A stretch of DNA of 36,464 bases, from IMG/VR virus record IMGVR_UViG_3300037189_017663, positions 1 through 36,464 of that record. One strand, given 5' to 3'. Source of the stretch: a virus. Position 1 is the first letter of the stretch, and every line of letters starts with the position of its first letter. Position numbers and translations under genes: made by a program. Below the pieces are notes generated by a model. The model saw only the letters and a program-made list of their open reading frames with translations. It was not told the origin of the DNA and ran no database searches. Shown one piece after another: positions 1-36,464 of the stretch.

Positions 1-87
1 GCGATAGCTCCTGCAATAGAGCCTATTGCTCTTTTTCGCATCGTTGTTTCATCCACTGTCTTAGCCTCTTCTTTAGCTTTATCGACA
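1..87. repeat. Terminal direct repeat, left copy (circularisation overlap)
   Basis: These 87 bases are identical to the last 87 bases of the window (36378-36464). An exact overlap of this kind is what an assembler leaves at the ends of a circular molecule, and 87 is a plausible k-mer length. A reading frame crosses the joint without interruption, which supports circularity (or circular permutation) rather than a true short terminal repeat. One copy should be removed, giving 36,377 bp. Confidence 0.93.
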
Positions 88-551
88 GGCTCGGTTGGCT
101 TTTGTTCCACTTTCGGCGTTTCTTCATTTTTTTTTGGCTGCTCAGGAATGGGCTTGGTCTCTGGTAATTTTGGCTTAGTCTTTTTTAGTGCTGCATAGGT
201 GTCTAGCCTTGTGCTTGCTTGAGTCCAAATCAGAGACATAATAACTAATTCATCTTCTGTTAGAGGTAAAAGCCTAATGTCTCCTAATCTTGCAAACTCC
301 GCTGCTAAAACTTCACACCACTTTGCCTGACCTCTTACATCCGTTGGAGCATTTGAAAACCACGCGCTTTTTGTGGCCGCATATGACCAAAGGGCTAAAA
401 GGTTTTTTACTTGGTATTTCTGGCAAGCGTCCCAAACCCTACCGCCTAGTAATTGATTGTGTGGCGCTCTATTTGCTCCATACTCACTACTCCAGCGGTT
501 TAGTTCTGTAATGTCTAGATTTTCAAAGACTTGATCTTTTAAAAAAAGCAT
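1..551 (-). CDS. Junction-spanning protein, N-terminal part (charged Pro/Lys/Glu linker, hydrophobic C-terminus)
   Basis: This is the 5' part of a leftward gene whose end lies at 36377-36290 once the genome is closed. The start at 551 has the ribosome site GGAGGGG 7 bases upstream. The whole protein is about 212 residues. Residues 1 to about 120 look like a compact mixed domain beginning MLFLKDQVFENLDITELN. A segment rich in Pro, Lys and Glu follows (about 125-165), then a hydrophobic tail (about 175-212) with IALFLEWIPLPLPIKMVL near its centre. The arrangement suggests a membrane-anchored protein with an extended spacer, but I do not recognise a family. It follows the HNH-AP2 gene by 23 bases and precedes the 88-residue gene at 35985-36251. 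A virion-associated or envelope role is possible but not shown. Confidence 0.8.
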   Translation of the reverse strand, partial: MLFLKDQVFENLDITELNRWSSEYGANRAPHNQLLGGRVWDACQKYQVKNLLALWSYAATKSAWFSNAPTDVRGQAKWCEVLAAEFARLGDIRLLPLTEDELVIMSLIWTQASTRLDTYAALKKTKPKLPETKPIPEQPKKNEETPKVEQKPTEPVDKAKEEAKTVDETTMRKRAIGSIAGAI

Positions 552-574: not shown

Positions 575-1321
575 TTACACCATGTTTTCGTATTCTTCAG
601 GGAAATTTAGCTTAGATATGTTTTTGTAGTGTTTCCAACACTCTTCGTCGTAAGCCTTTGCCGCTTCTTCTTGTGTTGCAAAAGTTCCCAATTTTATGTC
701 TTTTTTATTTACACGAATGCATGCGCTCCATGGGCGCTCTTTTGATCCTTGTCCTAGACCGACTCCTTTATACTTACTAGAAAAATTCCTAACAACCTGT
801 ATGTATGTTTTGAATTTAGTTTCTTCTTCTTCTCGCTCCGGCTCTGGAAAATTTAAGTTCGCGAACTCCCCAAAAAATTCTTTAGCTGCTCTGTCATAGG
901 CTTTGGCAGCGCCGTATTCACAGTAGTAACATCCGAGGGAGACCTTTTTTCCTCCGTGGCGTATCCTTGCCACCCATGGTTTTAACACACCGCATTTTCT
1001 TAAATAGACTCCTTTGTGTTGAGATTTTGTATTAGATGGCTTTTTCGAGTTTCTGATGTTTTCTAGGGTTGTACATATTCTTAAATTTTGAATCCTATTA
1101 TCTAATTTATTGCCATTTATATGGTCTACAATTTCCCCGCTTTTTGCGCCAAGAATAGCTCTATGAAGAAGACAGTTTTCCATCTTACCATCTTCTCGCC
1201 GCTCCATAGATTTTACATACAGCGTAGGCATTACATACCACTTCTTATTTAGCATAAGCGGCAAAAACTCTTCATCAATTAAAACGCGATGCTCGCCTAT
1301 CATATAAGCAATCGTAGACAT
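575..1321 (-). CDS. HNH homing endonuclease with two AP2 domains
   Basis: 248 residues. The HNH core is at residues 50-90, with H53, the D66-H67 pair in VDHINGNKLDN, N75 and N79. Two AP2-type DNA-binding domains follow: residues 100-160 (HKGVYLRK ... LNFPE) and 181-242 (YKGVGLG ... LNFPEE), joined by an acidic linker. This is the usual build of phage free-standing homing endonucleases, which nick or cut a target and promote their own copying. Two AP2 domains are less usual than one and suggest a longer recognition site. The start at 1321 follows GGAGG by only 4 bases. The gene lies just behind a terminator and has its own promoter-like sequence, so it looks like an inserted selfish unit between the synthase cassette and the junction gene. 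It is not expected to be needed for growth. Confidence 0.88.
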   Translation of the reverse strand: MSTIAYMIGEHRVLIDEEFLPLMLNKKWYVMPTLYVKSMERREDGKMENCLLHRAILGAKSGEIVDHINGNKLDNRIQNLRICTTLENIRNSKKPSNTKSQHKGVYLRKCGVLKPWVARIRHGGKKVSLGCYYCEYGAAKAYDRAAKEFFGEFANLNFPEPEREEEETKFKTYIQVVRNFSSKYKGVGLGQGSKERPWSACIRVNKKDIKLGTFATQEEAAKAYDEECWKHYKNISKLNFPEEYENMV

Positions 1322-1338
1322 AAGACCTCCGTTGCGGC

Positions 1339-1367
1339 TTAATATCGCGGAGATTGAATAAAATCAA
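1339..1367 (-). promoter_or_regulatory. Candidate sigma70-type promoter for the HNH-AP2 gene
   Basis: Read on the minus strand, TTGATT (1367-1362) and TATTAA (1344-1339) are separated by 17 bases, each matching 4 of 6 consensus positions. It starts just past the terminator at 1370-1397 and leads into the GGAGG of the gene starting at 1321. The position between a terminator and a gene makes it credible. Confidence 0.5.
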
Positions 1368-1369
1368 TG

Positions 1370-1397
1370 AAAAAATCCCGAGGTAATGAGCCTCGGG
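1370..1397 (-). terminator. Rho-independent terminator ending the glycosyltransferase cassette
   Basis: On the minus strand CCCGAGG (1397-1391) pairs perfectly with CCTCGGG (1383-1377) across a 7-base loop. One A and then six T (1375-1370) follow. It lies about 50 bases past the stop of the glycosyltransferase gene and in front of the HNH-AP2 gene. Confidence 0.85.
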
Positions 1398-1447
1398 TAC
1401 CAACGCGCTGAGAGTAATTCCGCATAGTCCGAAGGTAGTTGTTTACC

Positions 1448-2896
1448 TTATTTTACCGGATTGCTATTAAGAATGCTAGAAGCTGACAGCCAGAAATTAA
1501 AGAATGAAAACAATACTGGCATGATTAAGTTGACGGAGTTAATTTTGCCGTAAGCTTGCCAAGCGCCAAAAAGAATCGAAAGCAAACAAATAGTAGACCA
1601 TACAGAACAAAGCCAAAGAAACGACGCATACCTAGAGCCTCCTGATTTACTCGCTCCAGTGGGCACCCAGAGCATAGTGCTATTAAAAAGTTTATCTTTT
1701 AGTGCAAAAAAATGTGCATAGTAAGATACATGTCTAAGCTTAAGAAAGTCAAAATCTTTATTGGAATAATTAGACCAATGCCAAACGCCAATCGAGCCAA
1801 ATAGGAACGATGGGACATAGAAGACCATGTTAAACCAATGAAGATTTTCAGGGTAAAAATTGACTATTATCATCGAAGGCAAGTTTAAAAGAAAGATGCC
1901 TATCGCCGATGAAAAGTAGTAGATCATTCCTGAAAAGTAGCAAAGTTTTTGCATCTTGGTTAATGAAGATCCCCAAAACTCTTTGCTAAATAAAAGACTC
2001 ATACTGCCAGAACACCAACGGTATTGTTGATTAAAAAATGCTTTTAGATTGTCAGGGCACCTACCAACTGAAAGGTTTTCTGGAATGTATTTTATCTTTC
2101 CGCCAGCATTGACAAGGGTAAATCCCGTCCATACGTCTTCGGAGTGCTGCACTTGACGGAATCCCCCGACATTTTCAAGGCTAGATCGGCGATAAACAGC
2201 GCAAGAGCCCACGCAAATACTGCCACCATGACGATCACGAGAAGTTTGCACCAAACGGTAGAACAGCTCTTGGACATATCCTGATCCCCTTTCAATCCAA
2301 TTCATGTTATCTTTGACTTCAAAGTATTGCGGTGTCTGAACAATAGCTATTTTTTTATCAAACATCATAAACGGAACGGTTTCCTTAAGAAACTCTTTCT
2401 TTGGTGCAAAATCCGCATCGAGTACCAAAATAAACTCGCCGCTTGTTTGCTTGAAAGCATTTAAAAGATTGCCTGCCTTCTTAAACTCATTTGTTTTTCT
2501 TCTGATGTACTTGAATCCAAAACTCAGCGCCAAGGGAAGCATCGAATCATTTTTTCCGTCGTCTAGCACATAAACATTCAATTTATCTTTCGGCCAATCA
2601 AGCTTTTCTGTGTGTCGCCAGGCATCTAAGATAATAGCGACATTCTCGCCACAGATAGGAAGGAAAACATCGACAGTTGGAAATTCTTTTAAAGGCTTCC
2701 AATTTGTCTTTATGTACTTTTTGCCACTTAAAAGTATGCCATATGAAACAATTAAATAGATGCATATCACGCCAAAGAATGGCACAAAGACATACATTTC
2801 AGGCCTGGAAAGCGCAAACGAAAACGCTCCTATCGAAAGGAGCGCAAACGAAAGTATCCCAGGAATGAGATAGGAATACTTAGATTTTTCTACCAT
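1448..2896 (-). CDS. Processive family-2 glycosyltransferase (BcsA/cellulose synthase-like membrane protein)
   Basis: 482 residues. Two hydrophobic segments near the N-terminus (about 9-29 and 34-56) are followed by a GT-A catalytic domain (about 72-300), then several membrane segments (about 318-345, 355-372, 424-446, 455-476). The motifs of processive GT2 enzymes are all present in order: D112-D113-G, KAGN 140-143, DAD 160-162, QTPQ 187-190, the acceptor-site acid in HSED 251-254, and QQYRW 290-294. Known members use UDP-sugars to build and extrude beta-linked polysaccharides such as cellulose or hyaluronan. The sugar made here cannot be read from sequence. There is no PilZ domain, so no c-di-GMP control is expected. 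The start overlaps the previous stop by 7 bases, implying coupled translation with the secreted protein upstream. The core looks intact, and such an enzyme is unusual in a phage. Confidence 0.9.
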   Translation of the reverse strand: MVEKSKYSYLIPGILSFALLSIGAFSFALSRPEMYVFVPFFGVICIYLIVSYGILLSGKKYIKTNWKPLKEFPTVDVFLPICGENVAIILDAWRHTEKLDWPKDKLNVYVLDDGKNDSMLPLALSFGFKYIRRKTNEFKKAGNLLNAFKQTSGEFILVLDADFAPKKEFLKETVPFMMFDKKIAIVQTPQYFEVKDNMNWIERGSGYVQELFYRLVQTSRDRHGGSICVGSCAVYRRSSLENVGGFRQVQHSEDVWTGFTLVNAGGKIKYIPENLSVGRCPDNLKAFFNQQYRWCSGSMSLLFSKEFWGSSLTKMQKLCYFSGMIYYFSSAIGIFLLNLPSMIIVNFYPENLHWFNMVFYVPSFLFGSIGVWHWSNYSNKDFDFLKLRHVSYYAHFFALKDKLFNSTMLWVPTGASKSGGSRYASFLWLCSVWSTICLLSILFGAWQAYGKINSVNLIMPVLFSFFNFWLSASSILNSNPVK

Positions 2897-3222
2897 AGCT
2901 TGACTTTTATCCCTAAAGAGTATTCGTGGCTGAATTCTTCAGATGCAATTTCTTCTTGTAGCTTAGCGGCTAAGGTGATCTTTGCGTCCATGGGAAGGCT
3001 AAAATCTAAAGCATGGCTATTTTCTGCCCATTTGATCTCATTGTTTAGAGTGCCCATACCTATCCAAGTAGAATATCCGATTCCCCAAAAGAGCGGCTGA
3101 GCAACTGAAAGCCCAACGACTGTGTCTTGGTTAGGGTTGTTTTCAATAAGCTTTAGGCCGAAAGAAGCGGTAGAGCCGAATGCGGGCATAGATACTAGAA
3201 ATGCTAGTAGTAACTTTTTCAT
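2890..3222 (-). CDS. Small secreted protein, possible outer-membrane beta-barrel
   Basis: 110 residues from the ATG at 3222. A TTG five codons upstream is possible, but the ATG gives a normal signal peptide, MKKLLLAFLVSMPAFGSTA, with likely cleavage after an AxA-like site near residues 15-19. The mature part has alternating polar and non-polar stretches (FGLKLIE, TVVGLSVAQPLF, ALDFSLPM, AKITLAAKL) and ends in KVKLW. An aromatic last residue is typical of outer-membrane barrels. About 90 mature residues would allow a four- to six-stranded barrel or a unit of an oligomer. It is translationally coupled to the polysaccharide synthase that follows. Possible roles are an export channel for the polymer or a surface protein blocking other phages. 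Neither is shown. Confidence 0.72.
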   Translation of the reverse strand: MKKLLLAFLVSMPAFGSTASFGLKLIENNPNQDTVVGLSVAQPLFWGIGYSTWIGMGTLNNEIKWAENSHALDFSLPMDAKITLAAKLQEEIASEEFSHEYSLGIKVKLW

Positions 3223-3223
3223 G

Positions 3224-3254
3224 AAAAAAATCCCCAAAATGATTAGTTTTGAGG
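3224..3254 (-). terminator. Terminator-like hairpin overlapping the start region of the secreted protein
   Basis: On the minus strand CCTCAAAA... more exactly GGAG-free arm 3254-3247 pairs with TTTTGGGG (3239-3232; one G-T pair) across a 7-base loop, followed by A and seven T (3230-3224). It lies about 27 bases past the lipoprotein stop and should end the early leftward operon. The GGGGA that serves as ribosome site for the gene at 3222 is inside the second arm. Transcripts starting at the promoter at 3255-3283 would lack most of the first arm and so escape termination. Confidence 0.6.
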
Positions 3255-3283
3255 ATTATATTTCTATTTTTGGAAAAAGTCTA
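3255..3283 (-). promoter_or_regulatory. Candidate promoter of the secreted-protein/glycosyltransferase cassette
   Basis: On the minus strand TAGACT (3283-3278; 4 of 6) and a perfect TATAAT (3260-3255) are separated by 17 bases. The expected start of transcription is near 3248, about 25 bases before the ATG at 3222. The -35 box overlaps the stop codon of the lipoprotein gene. With the terminator at 1370-1397, it makes the two genes an independent transcription unit. Confidence 0.62.
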
Positions 3284-3454
3284 TTTTTCGTTTTCAGCTT
3301 CCAACAGAGACATTAGAGCGCAGTCTTTTTCTTCTTTCTGATCTTCTAACGGCTCTTTATCTTTCGCGCATTCTTGTAAAGTAATAGTTGTCGGTCGGCT
3401 TCTTTCATCATATCCGCAAGCAGTCATTGCTAAAACTAAAAATAAAATTTTCAT
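3281..3454 (-). CDS. Small lipoprotein (possible outer-membrane spanin)
   Basis: 57 residues. The protein begins MKILFLVLAMTACGYDERSR: a short charged start, a hydrophobic stretch, and a lipobox-like M-T-A-C with C13 as the likely lipidated residue. The rest is hydrophilic, acidic and has two more cysteines (C29, C45). The ribosome site GGGAGG precedes the ATG at 3454. It is the first gene after the amidase (gap 97 bases), which is where Rz1-like outer-membrane spanins often sit. It lacks the proline-rich body of Rz1, and no inner-membrane partner overlaps it. A superinfection-exclusion lipoprotein is the main alternative. Lipoprotein character is fairly sure; the role is inference. Confidence 0.75.
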   Translation of the reverse strand: MKILFLVLAMTACGYDERSRPTTITLQECAKDKEPLEDQKEEKDCALMSLLEAENEK

Positions 3455-5480: not shown

Positions 5481-5697
5481 TAGTATCCCCTTCGCAGCAT
5501 CCATAGCAATGCCATGTATTACACCTTTTGCATTCATAAACGTGGTTGCATCCTTTTTGACTTTTTAGCCTTTCCTCAAGAATGGCAATGATGTGCTCTT
5601 TGATATGAATTTTAACAAGCAACTGATCTTTGCTCTCAAAATATTTGATTCTGTGAAACTCTGAGGCCTTCAATATTTTAAAACCAAATAATTCCAT
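5470..5697 (-). CDS. Small protein with cysteine/histidine cluster, likely zinc-binding
   Basis: 75 residues from the ATG at 5697, which overlaps the previous stop as TAATG. Residues 1-50 are helical and basic (MELFGFKILKASEFHRIKYF ...). The C-terminal part has CNHVYECKRCNTWHCYGCCE, where C-x-H-x4-C-x2-C and H-C-x2-C-C could hold one or two zinc ions. Such small ribbons occur in phage regulators and nucleic-acid-binding proteins. No family is recognised. Confidence 0.68.
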   Translation of the reverse strand: MELFGFKILKASEFHRIKYFESKDQLLVKIHIKEHIIAILEERLKSQKGCNHVYECKRCNTWHCYGCCEGDTNER

Positions 5698-5897
5698 TAG
5701 TATCCCCAAATCTTTTTGCTTTTAACTTTCCACTTTGCTAAATGCTTCAAATCAGGAAAAGTCTTCTCAATCAATCTACTCACTGTGCTTGCGCAACAGT
5801 CAAGGCTCATGGCCACTGCAGCTCTAGTCTCATGCTTTTCTAATGCAGCTTTGACTTGAGCTCTAGTGTAAATCCTATCAATGCTAGCTTTACTCAT
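5697..5897 (-). CDS. Small helix-turn-helix protein, probable transcription regulator
   Basis: 66 residues from ATG 5897 (MSKASIDRIYTRAQVKAALE). An upstream GTG at 5903 is less likely because AGAGGTG fits as the ribosome site for the ATG. Residues 12-45 predict helix, turn, helix: R-A-Q-V-K-A-A-L ... E-T-R-A-A-V-A-M-S-L-D then C-C-A-S-T-V-S-R-L-I as recognition helix. It resembles Fis/resolvase-type or homeodomain-like HTHs. It sits near the start of the leftward operon, opposite the HNH-HTH gene, where phages keep control proteins. The targets are unknown; the inverted repeats near 10.55-10.76 kb are candidates. Confidence 0.7.
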   Translation of the reverse strand: MSKASIDRIYTRAQVKAALEKHETRAAVAMSLDCCASTVSRLIEKTFPDLKHLAKWKVKSKKIWGY

Positions 5898-5985
5898 AGT
5901 CACCTCTGATCACTTTGCAAGTGTACACCGCTACGCCGATCAGCAAAAGAATCAGGATTACAATACAGCCGATGAATTTAGTCAT
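5890..5985 (-). CDS. 31-residue single-span membrane peptide
   Basis: Sequence starts MTKFIGCIVILILLLIGVAV and ends in a short charged tail ending RGDYE. One membrane helix spans residues 4-22. The ribosome site GAGGT is 8 bases before the ATG at 5985. The end overlaps the next gene (TGAGTAA inside ATGAGTAA) and the start overlaps the previous stop (ATGA). It is very short, but the hydrophobicity and the coupling on both sides support translation. It could be a small inhibitor or holin-like peptide; nothing more can be said. Confidence 0.6.
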   Translation of the reverse strand: MTKFIGCIVILILLLIGVAVYTCKVIRGDYE

Positions 5986-6083
5986 TTCGTCAACCTCATT
6001 AGCAAGACAACGTCTAGAATTAGACCATCTTTTGTTAAAAGGTCAGTGGGCCAAGGCTTTAGGCAATAGAGTATTTTTTTCAT
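5982..6083 (-). CDS. 33-residue leader-type small ORF, first of the leftward operon
   Basis: Starts MKKILYCLKPWPTDLLTKDG and ends VVLLMRLTK. The ribosome site TGGAG stands 8 bases before the ATG at 6083. It overlaps the membrane peptide gene as ATGA. It is the first frame after the divergent control region and could be a real peptide or act as a translated leader for the genes behind it. No similarity is recognised. Confidence 0.5.
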   Translation of the reverse strand: MKKILYCLKPWPTDLLTKDGLILDVVLLMRLTK

Positions 6084-6156
6084 TTGATTCTCCAGTGTGA
6101 TAGTGGTAAACGATCCTTGTCTTGGTTAGCAAAATCGATAACATTTATGAGGAATC
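6084..6156. promoter_or_regulatory. Divergent control region between leftward and rightward early operons
   Basis: These 73 bases separate two head-to-head operons and must hold promoters in both directions. I could not settle convincing -35/-10 pairs. A rightward TTGTCT ... TAACAT pair with 16-base spacing exists, but it would start the message past the ribosome site of the gene at 6157. It is reported as a region, not as resolved sites. Confidence 0.5.
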
Positions 6157-6657
6157 ATGGCAAGAGACAATATAAGTAATACGCCAGAATATAGGGCGTG
6201 GTGCGGGGCAAAAAGCCGATGTGCCGATAAAAAAGGATATGCTTCGAAGTATTACCGTGACAGGGGGATTACAGTTTGCGACGAGTGGAAATGCGATTTC
6301 CATGCTTTTTTTAAGCACATTGGTCCAAAGCCAACGCCCAAACACACTTTAGACAGAATAGACAATGATCGAGGTTATGAGCCAGGAAATGTTAGGTGGG
6401 CTACAATGACTGCTCAAGCGAGAAATAGAAGGTTGCCATCTCCTAAGCCGCCTAGTGGACCAAAACAGCCGACAAAGGAGGACAAAATGATGATTTCAAA
6501 AATACGGGTTCTGTTGGCAAAAATACCTAAATCTCGGCTTGCATCAGAGCTTGGTGTCCAAAACACTAGTACCATAGACATGTGGACGAGTCGCGGCGTG
6601 GTGCCGGTTAAGTATCATCCCCAAATAGAAAGGCTTTACAATGAATTCTGTAAATGA
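6157..6657 (+). CDS. HNH-type endonuclease domain fused to Cro/YdaS-like helix-turn-helix
   Basis: 166 residues. Residues 10-92 form the phage HNH-like module with C-D-E-W, L-D-R-I-D-N (65-70) and G-Y-E-P-G-N-V-R-W-A-T (73-83), which is closely similar to the second module of the protein at 35286-35984. A proline-rich link (94-106) follows. Residues 111-166 form a short Cro/YdaS-like HTH: ISKIRVLLAKIPKSRLASEL, then the turn and recognition helix around NTSTIDMWTSRGVVP. GAGGA precedes the ATG at 6157. Inside the gene there is a near-perfect ribosome site and start for the HTH part alone (6487). The likely history is an HNH gene that landed upstream of, and fused to, a cro-like gene. It overlaps the next gene by 17 bases. 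Confidence 0.82.
   Translation: MARDNISNTPEYRAWCGAKSRCADKKGYASKYYRDRGITVCDEWKCDFHAFFKHIGPKPTPKHTLDRIDNDRGYEPGNVRWATMTAQARNRRLPSPKPPSGPKQPTKEDKMMISKIRVLLAKIPKSRLASELGVQNTSTIDMWTSRGVVPVKYHPQIERLYNEFCK
6487..6657 (+). CDS. Internal in-frame start: stand-alone Cro/YdaS-like repressor
   Basis: AAAGGAGG (6474-6481) lies 5 bases before an ATG at 6487, in frame with the HNH-HTH fusion and exactly at the domain boundary (residues M111/M112). It would give a 56-residue HTH protein, the usual size of a small Cro-like or YdaS regulator. The position at the head of the rightward operon, facing the divergent control region, is where such a regulator is expected. The ribosome site is among the strongest in the window. 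This is an inferred second product, not a separate frame. Confidence 0.55.
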   Translation: MMISKIRVLLAKIPKSRLASELGVQNTSTIDMWTSRGVVPVKYHPQIERLYNEFCK

Positions 6658-7234
6658 GCTAACGCCAGAGCAATTAAATGATCTTAAAGAGAAGTACAAT
6701 TTAATAATACCAGCGCCACAACCACAACCTGCAAGCGCTATGACATTAAAAGAGCTAGTGGAAGTCTTAGACAGATCAGAGTCCGAGGAAGTAGACTTAA
6801 ATCTAATTCAAGCAGTATTAAAAGCCCTACCTACCAAGGTCGATGGTTGCGCTCAGTATCTCGATTCTCTCGATGATGAAATCACTAGGGCAAAAGACTA
6901 CGCTAAGAAATTCTCAGACCTAGCCAAGCAGATAGAGGCCAGAAAAGAGCGTTTTGAAGGCTATTTAAAGCACTCTATCGAGTCTAATGGCTTCGAAAAG
7001 CTAACAGGCGACGCTTTCCAAATGACGATCAAAAAGAATCCTGCCTCTGTCATTGCCAGGCGAGAAGCCGATGCGGCCGACTCTCTGAATTACCCTAATT
7101 TAGTTACAACTAAAATGACCTTTGCTTGGGACAAAAAAGCCTTGAAAGAGGGCATAGAGTCGGGTGATAAAGTCGCGCTTGGGTTGGCCGATTTAGTGCA
7201 TAAAACATCTTTAAAAGTGGGAATTAAGAAATGA
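6641..7234 (+). CDS. Gp157-family phage protein
   Basis: 197 residues. It matches the siphovirus Gp157 pattern: an N-terminal helical region with T-L-K-E-L-V-E-V-L (about 32-45), a central coiled coil (about 65-115, LDSLDDEITRAKDYAKKFSD then KQIEARKERFEGYLK), and a C-terminal part with F-Q-M-T-I-K-K-N-P-A-S-V and a long V-T-T-K ... W-D-K-K-A-L-K-E. Family members sit next to ERF or RecT-like annealing genes, and their exact role is not settled. AAAGG is 7 bases before the start, and the gene overlaps both neighbours. It begins the recombination trio Gp157-ERF-SSB. Confidence 0.83.
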   Translation: MNSVNELTPEQLNDLKEKYNLIIPAPQPQPASAMTLKELVEVLDRSESEEVDLNLIQAVLKALPTKVDGCAQYLDSLDDEITRAKDYAKKFSDLAKQIEARKERFEGYLKHSIESNGFEKLTGDAFQMTIKKNPASVIARREADAADSLNYPNLVTTKMTFAWDKKALKEGIESGDKVALGLADLVHKTSLKVGIKK

Positions 7235-7893
7235 TCAAAAGTGAAAGCATCAAAGAACTACTAACAGCCCTAGCCAAAGCGCAAGGCAAGATTTCAGCGG
7301 CTAAAAAGGACTCTACTAACCCTCATTTCAAAAGCAAGTATGCTGACCTTGCTAGCTGTTGGGAAGCTATCAAAGAGCCGTTAAGCGTTAATGGGCTGTC
7401 TCTGTCTCAGTGGGTATCTAATTCAGAAAAAGGCCTAAACCTAATTACAATGTTAGGCCACTCAAGCGGCGAATATATTTACAGCGAATACTCGATGCCA
7501 AGTGGTCAGACTTCACAGGCCATTGGCTCGGCTATCACCTATGCTCGGAGATATGCTTTAAGCGCGGCTGTTGGGCTTGTAGCGGACGATGACGATGATG
7601 CTAATGCTGCAAATGAATATCAGAAAAAACAGCCTGAAAGGCAGATCACGAGGGCACCATCTACACTTTCAAAACCAGCTACAATCACCGATATGCAAAT
7701 AATCGAGCTAGTAAGTCAAGCTGCATCTCTAAATGTATCAGAGGCTCAGCTAATAGCATCAAATCAAGGCAAGCCTTTAGAAGAGTGGGACGTTCCAGCA
7801 TACGCGAAGGCGAAAGCGCAACTTCACGCCAAAGAAACAAATCAAAGAATAGCCAAAGAGCAGGCAGAATTGGCGAAAGGGAACAATGTTTAA
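7231..7893 (+). CDS. erf: ERF-family single-strand annealing protein
   Basis: 220 residues. Residues 5-130 fit the ERF family: L-A-K-A-Q-G-K-I-S ... N-P-H-F-K-S-K-Y-A-D-L-A, then G-L-S-L-S-Q-W-V, the block Q-A-I-G-S-A-I-T-Y-A-R-R-Y-A-L (about 93-107) and a run of aspartates after G-L-V-A. ERF proteins anneal complementary single strands and, in P22-like phages, help circularise or recombine the genome. The C-terminal half is variable and charged. The start overlaps the previous stop (ATGA), and SSB follows with an 8-base overlap, as expected for partners on single-stranded DNA. Confidence 0.92.
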   Translation: MIKSESIKELLTALAKAQGKISAAKKDSTNPHFKSKYADLASCWEAIKEPLSVNGLSLSQWVSNSEKGLNLITMLGHSSGEYIYSEYSMPSGQTSQAIGSAITYARRYALSAAVGLVADDDDDANAANEYQKKQPERQITRAPSTLSKPATITDMQIIELVSQAASLNVSEAQLIASNQGKPLEEWDVPAYAKAKAQLHAKETNQRIAKEQAELAKGNNV

Positions 7894-8308
7894 CATCGTA
7901 GCAGTAGGCACCATAGGCAGGATAGAAATAAAGAGCTTACAAAACGGCACTATCATAGCCGAGGGCTCTATTGCCTCTAACCGGCAAGTAAAGGGTGAGA
8001 AGATCACAGACTGGCTCAACTGGAAGTCTTTCGGCAAGACTGCAGAGGTCATTGGCGACTATGTAAAAAAAGGCGATCAGGCTATCTTTTCTGGCAGCCT
8101 ACAGACCGAGTCCTGGGAAAAAGATGGCCAGAAGCAAAGCAAGACTGTGATGATCATAGAGCGCTTTGAGTTTGGTAAGAACAAGCGGGAAGCTGAACAA
8201 GCGACAACAAGCCCACAGTTCACTCAAGGATTTTCTGAAAAAGAACAGCCTGGGACATTTCAGCCTGGCGCGTTTAACAATGTTGACTTTGATTCAATCC
8301 CTTTCTGA
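7886..8308 (+). CDS. ssb: Single-stranded DNA-binding protein
   Basis: 140 residues. Residues 1-105 form an OB-fold of the bacterial SSB type: V-A-V-G-T-I-G-R at the start, then W-L-N-W-K-S-F-G-K-T-A-E and Y-V-K-K-G-D-Q. A flexible Gln/Thr-rich linker and the acidic tail D-F-D-S-I-P-F follow; this tail is the peptide that recruits partner proteins in cellular SSBs. It would protect single-stranded DNA during replication and load annealing or repair proteins. It overlaps ERF (8 bases) and the following small gene (1 base). Confidence 0.95.
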   Translation: MFNIVAVGTIGRIEIKSLQNGTIIAEGSIASNRQVKGEKITDWLNWKSFGKTAEVIGDYVKKGDQAIFSGSLQTESWEKDGQKQSKTVMIIERFEFGKNKREAEQATTSPQFTQGFSEKEQPGTFQPGAFNNVDFDSIPF

Positions 8309-8529
8309 TGATGAAATATTATCTAGTAAGAAACCTGTATGCTCAAGACGGCGGGGAAATTTGGCATTCCTCGCCTGTTGCTGATGAGCTTGAGGTCTAT
8401 CTAAAAATCTGCCAGGAAAACTGGCATGGTAACTTTATGATCATTCCTGAAGATAAAATGCCTAGCTGCAGGGCTAGGTTTAAGAAGCTAGATTGGCAGA
8501 CTCACTTTAAACAAAACCCTAACCTTTAA
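8308..8529 (+). CDS. Hypothetical protein (73 aa), last gene of the recombination operon
   Basis: Starts MMKYYLVRNLYAQDGGEIWH. Aromatic-rich and soluble, with two cysteines far apart and no recognised domain. The start overlaps the SSB stop (TGATG), so it is translated with SSB; a second ATG one codon later is equally possible. Its end overlaps the convergent VRR-NUC gene by 11 bases on the other strand, and no terminator hairpin was seen between them. Confidence 0.68.
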   Translation: MMKYYLVRNLYAQDGGEIWHSSPVADELEVYLKICQENWHGNFMIIPEDKMPSCRARFKKLDWQTHFKQNPNL

Positions 8530-8833
8530 GATTTGTCACAAAAGCAGCAAACTCGCCTACCGATCTAATCACTCTCACCACAGCGCCACTATCAGCCAGC
8601 CTGTCAAGCCAAACAACTTGAGCAGGCCTTAACCTTCCTGAAGTAGTTTTCAATTCTACGGCCCAAAATAAGCCCGTGGTTGTGATCCCACAGAGATCAG
8701 GGAAACCAATGCAGCTTGACTTGCCTGAAGCTTTACCGTGCATTCCTGATTGTCCTAGGGGTATCCTCCAATGAACCAAGCCAGAATCATTTAAAATGCC
8801 TATGCAAGCTTTTTGCAATTCTGCCTCAGTCAT
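8519..8833 (-). CDS. VRR-NUC domain nuclease
   Basis: 104 residues from the ATG at 8833, which overlaps the previous stop (ATGACTGA) and has GAGG 8 bases upstream. The whole protein is a VRR-NUC domain: E-A-E-L-Q-K near the start, then H-W-R-I-P, G-F-P-D-L with its catalytic aspartate, E-L-K as the PD-(D/E)xK core, G-R-L-R-P-A-Q, and a final V-V-R-V-I-R-S. Stand-alone members are common in phage replication regions and are thought to act on branched DNA such as Holliday or flap structures. It lies at the end of the leftward replication operon. Confidence 0.88.
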   Translation of the reverse strand: MTEAELQKACIGILNDSGLVHWRIPLGQSGMHGKASGKSSCIGFPDLCGITTTGLFWAVELKTTSGRLRPAQVVWLDRLADSGAVVRVIRSVGEFAAFVTNLKG

Positions 8834-9065
8834 TTTTAAGCCTCGACTCAAGGCTGTCTAGTCTATTCTCTGCTCTGCTCATTCGATTAGTCAGATCATC
8901 TATGCCCTTAACAGCGGCTTTAAGCTCATAAACCATTTCCAAAAGCTTGTCGATTTTGTCACTCAGCTTCATGTCTATCTCTTTAACGCCAGCTAGCTTG
9001 TCCTTCACTAGAAACCAAAGTATCACTGCAGTTGGCACTATCAGCCAGCTAGGTAAGTTTTCCAT
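8826..9065 (-). CDS. Membrane-anchored coiled-coil protein (spanin- or holin-like)
   Basis: 79 residues. A membrane helix at about residues 6-21 (SWLIVPTAVILWFLV) is followed by a charged helix from 25 to the end with heptad-like hydrophobic spacing (LDDLTNRMSRAENRLDSLES region), a likely coiled coil. This N-terminal anchor plus coiled coil is the shape of inner-membrane spanins (Rz) and of several unassigned phage membrane proteins. The nearby genes are DNA-handling ones, not lysis ones, so a lysis role is only a suggestion. GAGGATC precedes the start at 9065. Confidence 0.7.
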   Translation of the reverse strand: MENLPSWLIVPTAVILWFLVKDKLAGVKEIDMKLSDKIDKLLEMVYELKAAVKGIDDLTNRMSRAENRLDSLESRLKND

Positions 9066-9092
9066 TTAGAGATCCTCGGGTGTTTTCATAGA

Positions 9093-9872
9093 TTATACAA
9101 CAGGCGGTAAAACTTTGCCTATTCGCTTTTGAGATAGTTCAAAATATTTAGCATCTAGCTCTATGCCTATGAAGTTTCTTTTAAGGCTAATTGCTTCCTT
9201 GCCAGTGGTTCCACTTCCCATGAAAGGATCTAGCACTGTATCACCTTCGTTAGTCCATGAGATGATATGATCATGAGCCAGCTTGTCGGGGAATATGGCC
9301 GGATGTTCAAAAGCTTCTCTGTCTTTGGTTGTTTTGTTAAAGCCGGTCACATAGCTCCAAACATTGCCCTTTGTTTTTGTTTCTTTGTGAACCCTACCAA
9401 TAGACCAAACATCTCCTAGCCTATCATCATTTTTTCTACATCTAGCCGTTATTTTGTGGCCAGCATATGTACATTTTTCCATAATCGGATTGAATGTCTT
9501 TGGCTTTCCCTTTGAAATGATAAACATGTACTCAAATTTTTGTTCATATCGCATATTGTTTTGTGGCATTTTCTGGGACATATAAATCATCGTGTCATGC
9601 AGGTTTAAGCCTATTTCTTTAAAGTAAAGGGCCTGCCTAAAGCTAGTCCCGCTCTCACTGCCTTTAATAGTAGCATCCCCTACTACCCATACACAGACGC
9701 CGCCAGGCTTTAGCAGTCTTTTAATTTGAAGGGCTACTAGCTGAAACTGTTCAAAGCTTAAACCTTGGTACTTTCTTAAACTGTCATAGGGCGGACTAGT
9801 TAAAACCATGTCAACCGATTCACTGTCTAGCTTGGCCATTTCTGTAATGCAATCGCCTAGGATTAGCTGCAT
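9093..9872 (-). CDS. DNA methyltransferase, beta-class (N4-cytosine or N6-adenine), orphan
   Basis: 259 residues. The catalytic motif T-S-P-P-Y (25-29) precedes the AdoMet-binding motif D-P-F-M-G-S-G-T-T (215-223), the beta-class order. The central part (about 95-200) is the target-recognition region. TSPPY is more usual in N4-cytosine enzymes, whereas N6-adenine ones mostly have DPPY, but the base cannot be fixed from this. No restriction enzyme gene is beside it, so it probably protects phage DNA from host restriction or marks the genome. It sits 9 bases after the initiator-like gene in the same operon; AAAGG is its ribosome site. Confidence 0.93.
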   Translation of the reverse strand: MQLILGDCITEMAKLDSESVDMVLTSPPYDSLRKYQGLSFEQFQLVALQIKRLLKPGGVCVWVVGDATIKGSESGTSFRQALYFKEIGLNLHDTMIYMSQKMPQNNMRYEQKFEYMFIISKGKPKTFNPIMEKCTYAGHKITARCRKNDDRLGDVWSIGRVHKETKTKGNVWSYVTGFNKTTKDREAFEHPAIFPDKLAHDHIISWTNEGDTVLDPFMGSGTTGKEAISLKRNFIGIELDAKYFELSQKRIGKVLPPVV

Positions 9873-9881
9873 ATGATGCCT

Positions 9882-10595
9882 TTAGTTGGTTTCCCCTAAT
9901 CTATCTGCCATGACAATGGTTGACAAGTAGTGCTTGGCCAATGAAATAATATCTTGGCGCTTCTTAGAGTAAGCCCTGATAGGCAGCTTTGTTTTGTCTT
10001 TCATAAAATCAGCCTCTAGCCATTTAAAGAATGCTGGCATCAAATCAAAACCAATTATCTTTTCAATGGAATCCTCGAGCCTCTTCCTCCGAGTCCCAGG
10101 CATTAAAATATGATCAATATTTAGTCCCCCCCTCAGGGGGGTTAGGGTGGGCGATTCTTTCGGCGAATTTTCGCCGTTATTTATATTCTTATATGTATTC
10201 TTATTAGTAGTGGATTTTCCACTAACGATTGGTGGATTTTCCACTAACGATTGGTGGATTTTCCACCTATCTATTTCAAAGTCGATAGCCTCCCACTCCA
10301 CCCATCGGCCATGTTTTCTAATCTCTTTGACTAGATTTTGAGCAGAAAGTCTTTTGATGCTAAGTTTTATTTGGTCAACTGGGTAGCCTTGATTTACTAG
10401 CGTAGCTACACGATAGTGATAGCCAGATGACACATTGTTTAGAACAGCCCAAAGGTAAGCATCAAAGCCAGTGATCTTTTTTTGCTTTACAAAATCCTGC
10501 AGCCAATTAGGTAGTTTTGCGTAACCTGATTTTATTTCGTCTGACAGAAAAACCTCCCTTGATTTCTGGGAGGTCGAATGATATAAATGAATCAT
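9882..10595 (-). CDS. Replication initiator-like protein (lambda O type arrangement)
   Basis: 237 residues. Residues 20-115 look like a winged-helix DNA-binding domain: S-G-Y-A-K-L-P-N-W-L ... D-A-Y-L-W-A-V-L, then H-Y-R-V-A-T-L-V-N-Q-G-Y and R-L-S-A-Q-N-L-V-K-E-I. A polar Asn/Thr/Ser-rich linker (about 115-155) is encoded by the iterons and AT-rich stretch described separately. Residues 160-237 form a helical C-terminal domain. In lambda-type phages the O protein binds iterons inside its own gene and recruits the helicase loader. The same layout is seen here, although the sequence itself is not clearly O. The start at 10595 has AGGA upstream. No helicase or loader gene was found, so the host supplies those. 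Confidence 0.72.
   Translation of the reverse strand: MIHLYHSTSQKSREVFLSDEIKSGYAKLPNWLQDFVKQKKITGFDAYLWAVLNNVSSGYHYRVATLVNQGYPVDQIKLSIKRLSAQNLVKEIRKHGRWVEWEAIDFEIDRWKIHQSLVENPPIVSGKSTTNKNTYKNINNGENSPKESPTLTPLRGGLNIDHILMPGTRRKRLEDSIEKIIGFDLMPAFFKWLEADFMKDKTKLPIRAYSKKRQDIISLAKHYLSTIVMADRLGETN
10126..10266. other. Probable replication origin inside the initiator-like gene
   Basis: The order is: a G/C hairpin (CCCCCC at 10127-10132 pairing GGGGGG at 10136-10141), a second hairpin (CGGCGA at 10161-10166 pairing TCGCCG at 10171-10176), an AT-rich stretch of about 33 bases (10177-10209), and 2.6 tandem 22-bp iterons (10210-10266). Iterons next to an AT-rich unwinding region, inside the initiator gene, is the lambda-type origin plan. 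The iteron unit is not a multiple of three and is read in all three frames, so it is kept for the DNA, not for the protein. Confidence 0.7.
10210..10266. repeat. 22-bp tandem iterons, 2.6 copies
   Basis: Copies at 10210-10231 and 10232-10253 are identical; a third copy is cut to its first 13 bases at 10254-10266. Each begins with the near-palindrome GTGGATTTTCCAC (arms GTGGA and TCCAC), so three identical protein-binding faces are spaced by about two turns of the helix. Confidence 0.9.
10552..10574. repeat. 7-9-7 inverted repeat at the start of the initiator-like gene
   Basis: ACCTCCC (10552-10558) and GGGAGGT (10568-10574) form a perfect 7-base inverted repeat with a 9-base spacer, just inside the initiator gene. 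The geometry and the outer ACCT/AGGT ends match the inverted repeat at 10736-10758, so both could bind one regulator. It could also be a messenger hairpin. Confidence 0.5.
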
Positions 10596-35285: not shown

Positions 35286-35984
35286 ATGGTAATAAGAATT
35301 CACAACAGGCGAGGAACACCAGAGTACAGCGCTTGGTCGCGGGCTTTTCAAAGTTGCTACAATGAAAAAAGCCCAAACTATAAAAGTGTTGGCGGCGCTG
35401 GCATTAAGATGTGCGAAGAATGGAAGAATGATTGTGTGGCTTTTATGGACTACATATCTCCCAAGCCTGCCGGAAAATTTTATCTTCAAAGGATTGATAG
35501 ATCGAAAGATTTTGAGCCTGGCAACGTCGAGTGGTCGCCGGTTTTGTATAGGCCAGAACGAGGAGAACACAGATTGAGCATGAGCTCCGAATATAATATT
35601 TGGACCAAAATTAAAAGTCGGTGCTACAGAGTTGATGATCCGGTTTTTGAGAGATATGGCGGACGGGGCATATTAATGTGCGATGCTTGGAAAAATGATT
35701 TTATGTCGTTTTATAATTACGTTGGTCCCAGGCCTTCAAAGATTCATTCTATCGACAGGATAGACAACAACAAAGGATATGAACCTGGGAATGTTAGGTG
35801 GGCGACAGCTTTTGAACAAACAAGAAACAAAAGATCAAACATTCATGTACAGATTTGCTGCCAAACAAAAATACTGGAGGATTGGTGCAGGATTCACGGA
35901 GTTACGAGGCGGGCATTTTCTTACAGGACGGCGAAAGGCTGGGACACATTAGCCGCATTTGGCTTAAGGCCCAGCCCAAAATAA
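35286..35984 (+). CDS. HNH-type endonuclease with tandem HNH modules and C-terminal HTH
   Basis: 232 residues. Two copies of the same module stand in tandem. Residues 8-95 (T-P-E-Y-S-A-W ... M-C-E-E-W-K-N-D ... L-Q-R-I-D-R ... F-E-P-G-N-V-E-W) are a diverged copy. Residues 99-183 (S-S-E-Y-N-I-W ... Y-G-G-R-G-I-L-M-C-D-A-W ... S-I-D-R-I-D-N ... G-Y-E-P-G-N-V-R-W-A-T) look intact. A small HTH-like DNA-binding end follows (about 190-228, T-K-I-L-E-D-W-C-R-I-H-G-V-T). The second module is close to that in the gene at 6157, also in DNA sequence. It lies on the plus strand between two leftward genes, as an inserted homing gene would. The strong ribosome site TTGGAGGG supports the start. Confidence 0.85.
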   Translation: MVIRIHNRRGTPEYSAWSRAFQSCYNEKSPNYKSVGGAGIKMCEEWKNDCVAFMDYISPKPAGKFYLQRIDRSKDFEPGNVEWSPVLYRPERGEHRLSMSSEYNIWTKIKSRCYRVDDPVFERYGGRGILMCDAWKNDFMSFYNYVGPRPSKIHSIDRIDNNKGYEPGNVRWATAFEQTRNKRSNIHVQICCQTKILEDWCRIHGVTRRAFSYRTAKGWDTLAAFGLRPSPK

Positions 35985-36289: not shown

Positions 36290-36464
36290 CTACTTAAACA
36301 AGGAGGCAATAGTGTAAAAAATAGCCTTTAAAACCATCTTAATTGGAAGAGGTAATGGAATCCATTCGAGGAAAAGTGCGATAGCTCCTGCAATAGAGCC
36401 TATTGCTCTTTTTCGCATCGTTGTTTCATCCACTGTCTTAGCCTCTTCTTTAGCTTTATCGACA
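36290..36464 (-). CDS. Junction-spanning protein, C-terminal part
   Basis: This is the end of the gene starting at 551. In the window it is open at its 5' side; bases 36378-36464 are the repeated part and 36377-36290 are new sequence. The joined frame continues GSIAGAIALFLEWIPLPLPI, then MVLKAIFYTIASLFK and a TAG at 36292-36290. The hydrophobic end could hold one or two membrane passes or an amphipathic helix. The uninterrupted frame is the best proof that the contig closes. Confidence 0.8.
   Translation of the reverse strand, partial: VDKAKEEAKTVDETTMRKRAIGSIAGAIALFLEWIPLPLPIKMVLKAIFYTIASLFK
36378..36464. repeat. Terminal direct repeat, right copy
   Basis: Exact copy of positions 1-87; see the left copy. 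It should be counted once in the circular genome. Confidence 0.93.

Follow-up and report, generated by a model that had tools for sequence, protein, structure and literature searches.

A cellulose-synthase-like glycosyltransferase paired with a small secreted protein in diverse phages: a putative surface-polysaccharide module

Why would a phage carry a gene for a membrane polysaccharide synthase directly behind a gene for a small secreted protein? The question is raised by a stretch of viral DNA of 36,464 bases, IMG/VR virus record IMGVR_UViG_3300037189_017663 (hereafter the window, meaning the whole stretch), which is a complete phage genome with an 87-bp terminal direct repeat. Genes for a P22-like portal, terminase, major head protein, ERF and SSB were recognised, and six proteins matching at 22-27% link the genome weakly to a Silvanigrella phage. 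No integrase, repressor or other lysogeny gene was recognised among the window proteins scanned, which lends no support to a lysogenic cell, a possibility that an earlier note on this DNA had allowed for.

That note had described a unit with its own promoter and terminator. Its sequence features were all found where it had placed them, and both signals are kept in two relatives, phages L002 and L072. The unit lies on the minus strand and consists of the following elements, in order of transcription.

3255..3283, minus strand: sigma70-type promoter TAGACT-17-TATAAT, 10/12 to consensus; hexamers and spacing also in L002
3229..3257, minus strand: leader inverted repeat of 11 pairs, with compensatory changes in L002 and L072
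2890..3222, minus strand: gene for a small secreted beta-protein of 110 aa, predicted founder of a new family, with Sec-type N-terminus and C-terminal Trp (...KVKLW)
2890..2896, minus strand: overlap of the small gene and the GT2 gene, ATGGTAG, 7 bases; also in L002, L090 and L096
1448..2896, minus strand: gene for a BcsA/CslA-type processive GT2 of 482 aa, PilZ-free, with six channel helices (from motifs, profiles and AlphaFold model)
1398..1431, minus strand: conserved untranslated element, GACTATGCGG...GCGG..TGG, between GT2 stop and terminator
1370..1397, minus strand: intrinsic terminator, stem 1397-1377, T-tail to 1370

Taken singly, the promoter is no better than chance, as 9 promoter-like sites were found in the window and 10.1 are expected from shuffles. 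In L002, however, both hexamers and the 17-nt spacing recur beside homologues of both genes, though spacer and upstream sequence have largely diverged, which argues that the promoter matters beyond chance. L072 has a similar -10.

The leader repeat extends in all three phages from the -10 over the Shine-Dalgarno sequence (GGGGA in the window) to the T-run before the ATG. It forms 10-11 pairs, and its arms change in step from phage to phage. Set against other gene starts (35 in the window, 25 in L002, 27 in L072), its stem is the strongest in each phage. Comparably strong leader stems occur in three further phages (L087, L088, L089); in L073, L074, L090, L091 and L096 the stem does not stand out among the gene starts compared. 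The repeat is possibly a gate of translation or transcription or, just as possibly, an operator. A transcript from the unit's own promoter would lack most of the 5' arm if it started at the usual distance past the -10, and a read-through transcript from upstream would fold the stem. The hairpin recalls the stem-loop of T4 lysozyme gene e, which inhibits translation from early transcripts (PMC3014915).

At the opposite end, the untranslated element directly before the terminator is common to the window, L002 (~5635-5672) and L072 (~7911-7945). The terminator stem of L002 is identical to that of the window and only its loop differs, and L072 shows a compensatory change (CCCAAGG/CCTTGGG). An Rfam search over positions 1200-3400 of the window gave nothing convincing. 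The terminator region has a tRNA-like look, an idea dropped when ARAGORN found no tRNA.

We wondered what kind of synthase the larger gene encodes. Its motifs DDG, DAD, SED and QQYRW each have their aligned counterpart among the catalytic motifs of E. coli BcsA, which matches best by sequence in PDB, and these motifs (D, DxD, (T/S)ED, QxxRW) are invariant in an alignment of the enzyme from ten phages. Pfam recognises GT2 and Cellulose_synt in it, and the best NCBIfam match is CelA (215 bits). Structure prediction and comparison with BcsA, which the earlier note had proposed, gave an AlphaFold model (pLDDT 80, pTM 0.82) that superposes on BcsA residues 194-693 with a VIA-align Z of 27.9 over 458 of 482 residues, catalytic motifs aligned; the best BcsA chains fit at 3.9-4.5 A over 456-469 residues. 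In the model, the matched region comprises the catalytic domain and the six channel helices, fused in one protein. The PilZ c-di-GMP domain has no Pfam match, the enzyme ending where BcsA residue ~693 aligns, and the scores lie below the BcsA equivalog cut-offs (TIGR03030/NF008558; 215/699 bits and 190/992 bits). By motifs and fold the enzyme is a member of the processive BcsA/CslA branch of GT2; by PilZ and score it is not BcsA itself. Since cellulose synthases match it best in both sequence and fold, the proposal of a processive BcsA-type enzyme, as opposed to a GtrB-type lipid-linked transferase, is borne out.

The closest cellular sequences found are genes of Streptomyces and relatives (about 42%); that search relied on short exact peptide patterns and possibly missed nearer ones. 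Among viral proteins, the best match by fold is BFVD M1HTG7 (TM 0.92, 40% identity, 520 aa), possibly a chlorovirus protein of the A473L type, judging from its size and from the description of PBCV-1 A473L as a six-TM, CESA/CelA-like protein (PMC9614988). At 80% coverage, the enzyme is absent from all 50,697 annotated phage records. Viral contigs with a 'GT2 cellulose synthase' are mentioned in AMG surveys (PMC12285232), and no paper describing the gene pair was found among the open-access literature.

Does the pair occur in other phages? Profile searches of viral contigs, followed by searches with a profile of the small protein, revealed the small gene followed by GT2 in 16 distinct phages: the window, L002, L073, L074, L087, L088, L089, L090, L091, L096, L102, L104, L106, L107, L109 and L124 (L105 is identical to L104 and was counted once). 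The recurrence that the earlier note had asked about is thus a fact. The enzymes of these pairs are about 40-50% identical, save one at 83%. The small gene always comes first and is closely linked, usually overlapping the GT2 gene or lying within about 13 bases of it; in L104 a 61-codon ORF separates the two. A tree of the ten small-gene-linked enzymes then known did not group them in a single supported clade, and one clade is not rejected (p-AU 0.26).

A single-sequence search with the small protein of the window gave no match, and its family surfaced only via wider GT2 profiles. When each of the first five small proteins was left out of the profile in turn, it was recovered with an E value between 2e-3 and 1e-32 (L072 2e-3; L073 4e-4; L074 3e-11; window and L002 below 1e-28), and shuffled controls reached no better than 0.3. 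A small-protein profile built without them finds six more members (E 1.6e-6 to 1e-15), and a further six distinct phages were found by the small-protein profile at E 8e-12 to 2e-27.

A single metagenome (3300049489) yielded four different pair phages (L002, L089, L109, L124), a hint that the system is frequent in some habitat or host. L090 encodes an RNA polymerase sigma-factor-like protein (phrog_351; 6531-7286) a few kilobases from its pair.

It might be argued that the pair is a host-derived passenger, or stems from contamination or a chimeric contig, and does nothing for the phage; the Streptomyces chromosomal genes, being the closest cellular relatives found, would fit this. The window, however, is a complete genome with a terminal repeat, and in comparison with L002 strong purifying selection is seen on the GT2 gene (pN 0.13, pS 0.75) and on the small gene (pN 0.18, pS 0.67). 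L002 has the locus beside a different head/tail module, L106 carries the pair between terminase and head-tail adaptor/portal-type genes, and terminase was detected by phrog_2 in seven of nine other pair-carrying records searched. Recurrence and selection together already largely refute the passenger explanation, which we regard as hardly credible.

The small proteins have no relative in Pfam, PHROGs or PDB. Matches to Pfam OEP (E 0.22) and to beta-lactamase signal peptides (E 0.04) were rejected as chance, and one sequence, that of L096, was searched against plasmids and gave no match. By eye, most of the 16 sequences have a hydrophobic N-terminus followed by AxA-like sites. A W-x-G-x-G region is present in most (degenerate in L109 and L124), as are a second Trp and an end of ...LW type; the C-terminal residue is W or F in 15 of 16, and the remaining protein ends in LWD. 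Hydrophobicity alternates with period 2 (z = 8.2 against shuffles; helical moment z = -2.7). Such sequences bear the marks of a small outer-membrane beta-protein. Of the barrel-like signal-peptide protein noticed earlier, the signal peptide, the alternating beta-pattern and the C-terminal aromatic residue stand, whereas the barrel fold itself is a prediction; AlphaFold, run from a two-sequence alignment only, reached pLDDT 38. About six strands would be too few for a monomeric pore, a point against the reading favoured below.

Distribution of the small protein is informative in this respect. It occurs in 16 of 17 low- or mid-GC phages and in none of six high-GC enzyme-bearing contigs (Fisher p 7e-5, uncorrected for phylogeny; the lineages are not independent, and GC content is only a proxy for host type). 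Those six contigs (L003, L075, L092, L094, L118, L120) look actinobacterial, and absence of the small protein from them is what an outer-membrane role predicts. One mid-GC phage (L093/L095) also has the enzyme alone. In L075, the GT2 appears by eye fused to an acyltransferase-like domain in one ORF of 1284 aa (5572-9426).

We then compared the window with its two relatives. L002 shares with it only a late block (amidase, the pair, gp229, gp88, HNH, gp93) and has another terminase/portal set, so this block moves between phages. L072 belongs to the same genus or kind; its portal and terminase are 87% and 81% identical to those of the window, and it has its own 123-base repeat. Its locus, from amidase to gp221, contains the promoter and a diverged small gene, whose product ends in KLW and has no WTGxG motif, and no GT2; the enzyme is therefore dispensable. 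Past the small gene, its sequence resembles the last GT2 codons and the 3' region of the gene in the window and L002 (of 500 shuffles, 1 and 0, respectively, did as well), which makes enzyme loss the likelier direction. L072 could also be taken to mean that the small protein has nothing to do with the enzyme, which merely rides beside it, and acts in the outer membrane as a factor of exclusion or lysis. The trace of a lost enzyme weighs against this, as does the close linkage in 16 of 16 phages, L072 being the only place where a solitary small gene was found; we judge it distinctly unlikely.

The term moron, applied to the unit in the earlier note, suits the window and its close relatives, in which the unit is insulated and a sister phage lacks the enzyme. 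It does not extend to L106, with the pair embedded between terminase and portal-type genes, or to L087 and L107, where the pair runs into a lytic-enzyme gene (Phage_lysozyme, and TIGR02594/CHAP, a tail lysozyme by PHROGs, respectively). HNH and AP2-HNH genes lie around the shared late block of the window (575-1321, 6157-6657, 35286-35984); that at 575-1321 has no counterpart at this position in L002 and L072, in keeping with mobile homing endonucleases. The unit is adjoined by a gene of the gp183/229 family (window 3-551 joined to 36290-36377, minus strand; L002 5697-6368; L072 7980-8645). Its products have a conserved N-terminal part, a Pro/Glu/Lys-rich linker and a hydrophobic C-terminus and match no family; they could be candidate lysis proteins.

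Position of the pair beside lytic-enzyme genes, and between terminase and portal genes in L106, suggests that it may be expressed late. It may even be an accessory of lysis or envelope stress. Chains building up in the periplasm, or drainage of UDP-sugars from wall and lipopolysaccharide, would then aid the endolysin while the small protein perturbs the outer membrane. Lytic-enzyme genes near or against the pair in the window and L002 (amidase in both), L087 and L107 are in agreement with this, and L072 retains its small gene beside the amidase in the same place. By eye, however, no recognised lytic enzyme lies directly beside the pair in L088, L089, L090, L091, L096, L102, L104 and L124, and the dehydrogenase and epimerase genes described below speak for a defined polymer more than for a drain. 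A lysis accessory is an alternative, albeit an improbable one.

Genes for UDP-sugar dehydrogenases or epimerases are found near the pair in four phages. L073 has a partial gene of the UDP-Glc/GDP-Man dehydrogenase family 36 bases upstream of the small gene, L089 an epimerase gene and an intein-bearing member of the same family, and L096 an epimerase gene about 2 kb upstream of the pair. In L104, a TviC-like epimerase gene overlaps the GT2 end and a TviB-like UDP-GlcNAc dehydrogenase gene is also near. Enzymes of these kinds produce the acidic sugars of Vi and similar capsules, and in those phages the polymer is therefore probably anionic; for the window and L002 this idea is indirect, since no sugar-nucleotide genes are adjacent to their pairs. 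The L089 dehydrogenase intein (gene at 8226-10007) carries a LAGLIDADG endonuclease.

L074 and L089 have further sugar genes nearby (methyltransferase, DAHP-synthase-like, GT2), as would be expected if the glycan ended up decorating virions or host lipopolysaccharide and did not form a free coat; PBCV-1 A473L is likewise among the enzymes considered for capsid glycosylation (PMC9614988). A channel-type synthase, on the other hand, would release its chain beyond the inner membrane and so at a distance from virion assembly, and its partner here is a secreted beta-protein. The chances of decoration are accordingly rated as slim.

The reading we favour, with confidence slightly on the positive side, is that the unit is a phage-encoded module for polysaccharide synthesis and surface delivery in a two-membrane cell, by which the infected cell is coated. 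In the window, host polymerase would transcribe it, starting at the unit's own promoter. To judge from fold and motifs, the GT2 would sit in the inner membrane, polymerise a UDP-sugar and thread the chain outward through its own six-helix channel. The small protein would be Sec-exported and, by means of its C-terminal aromatic signal, would enter the outer membrane, probably in oligomeric form, there to pass or anchor the chain at the cell surface. The activated acidic sugar may in some phages be supplied through the UDP-sugar dehydrogenase and epimerase genes nearby. Synthesis and export by the pair would give the infected cell a polymer coat. Most likely, further phages would then adsorb less, or progeny would re-adsorb less to cells and debris; the benefit perhaps lies in keeping out other phages, in reduced re-adsorption or in assistance to lysis. 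Since no fewer than 15 other viruses, most of them very different, have the pair, some phages probably make infected cells produce a sugar coat.

Exporters of polysaccharides known in diderms (BcsC, PgaA, AlgE) are large outer-membrane proteins of 16-18 strands. If our reading is true, a channel synthase with a regular partner of about 90 residues would provide the simplest export route of this kind, and a tractable one. A bolder version is more doubtful: that the compact PilZ-free enzyme and a six-strand outer-membrane protein make up the smallest polysaccharide route known from inner to outer membrane, widespread and undescribed, with which lytic phages coat the dying host and shut out competitors. 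The pair offers a clear test case for late-infection coats as a means of exclusion, and the window and L072, natural sisters with and without the pair, make the question directly testable once the host is known.

Virus-borne synthases are already known; the two-gene arrangement is new. BcsA, which works with BcsB and BcsC, shares with the phage enzyme the GT2 domain, the D/DxD/TED/QxxRW motifs and six channel helices that superpose over 458 of 482 residues. In contrast to BcsA, the phage enzyme is PilZ-free and has 482 instead of 872 aa (structural identity 21-24%), and its partner is a single beta-protein of ~110 aa, no BcsB or BcsC gene being recognised beside the pair. The closest cellular sequences found (~42%) are Streptomyces synthases, perhaps orthologues of CslA. 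CslA-GlxA of S. lividans makes cellulose in vitro (PMC11022532), but it belongs to a monoderm host, and its partner GlxA is a radical copper oxidase (PMC11022532), with no small beta-protein. Synechococcus phage S-CBWM1 has a putative cellulose-synthase-type GT2 with a membrane partner gene directly upstream (gp157-gp158); its similarity amounts to about 40% identity over half the protein, and the partner is annotated as an efflux-pump membrane protein, not a small beta-protein. The hyaluronan and chitin synthases of chloroviruses (PBCV-1 A098R and others) are likewise virus-encoded processive GT2s, though of viruses with eukaryotic algal hosts and of another GT2 branch (Z ~22, 11-13% identity), and they have no outer-membrane partner. 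Chlorovirus hyaluronan synthase coats the infected algal cell, and UDP-glucose dehydrogenase is also virus-borne there (PMC7019647). If the function proposed here is true, phages would join chloroviruses in giving the cells they infect a coat of sugar.
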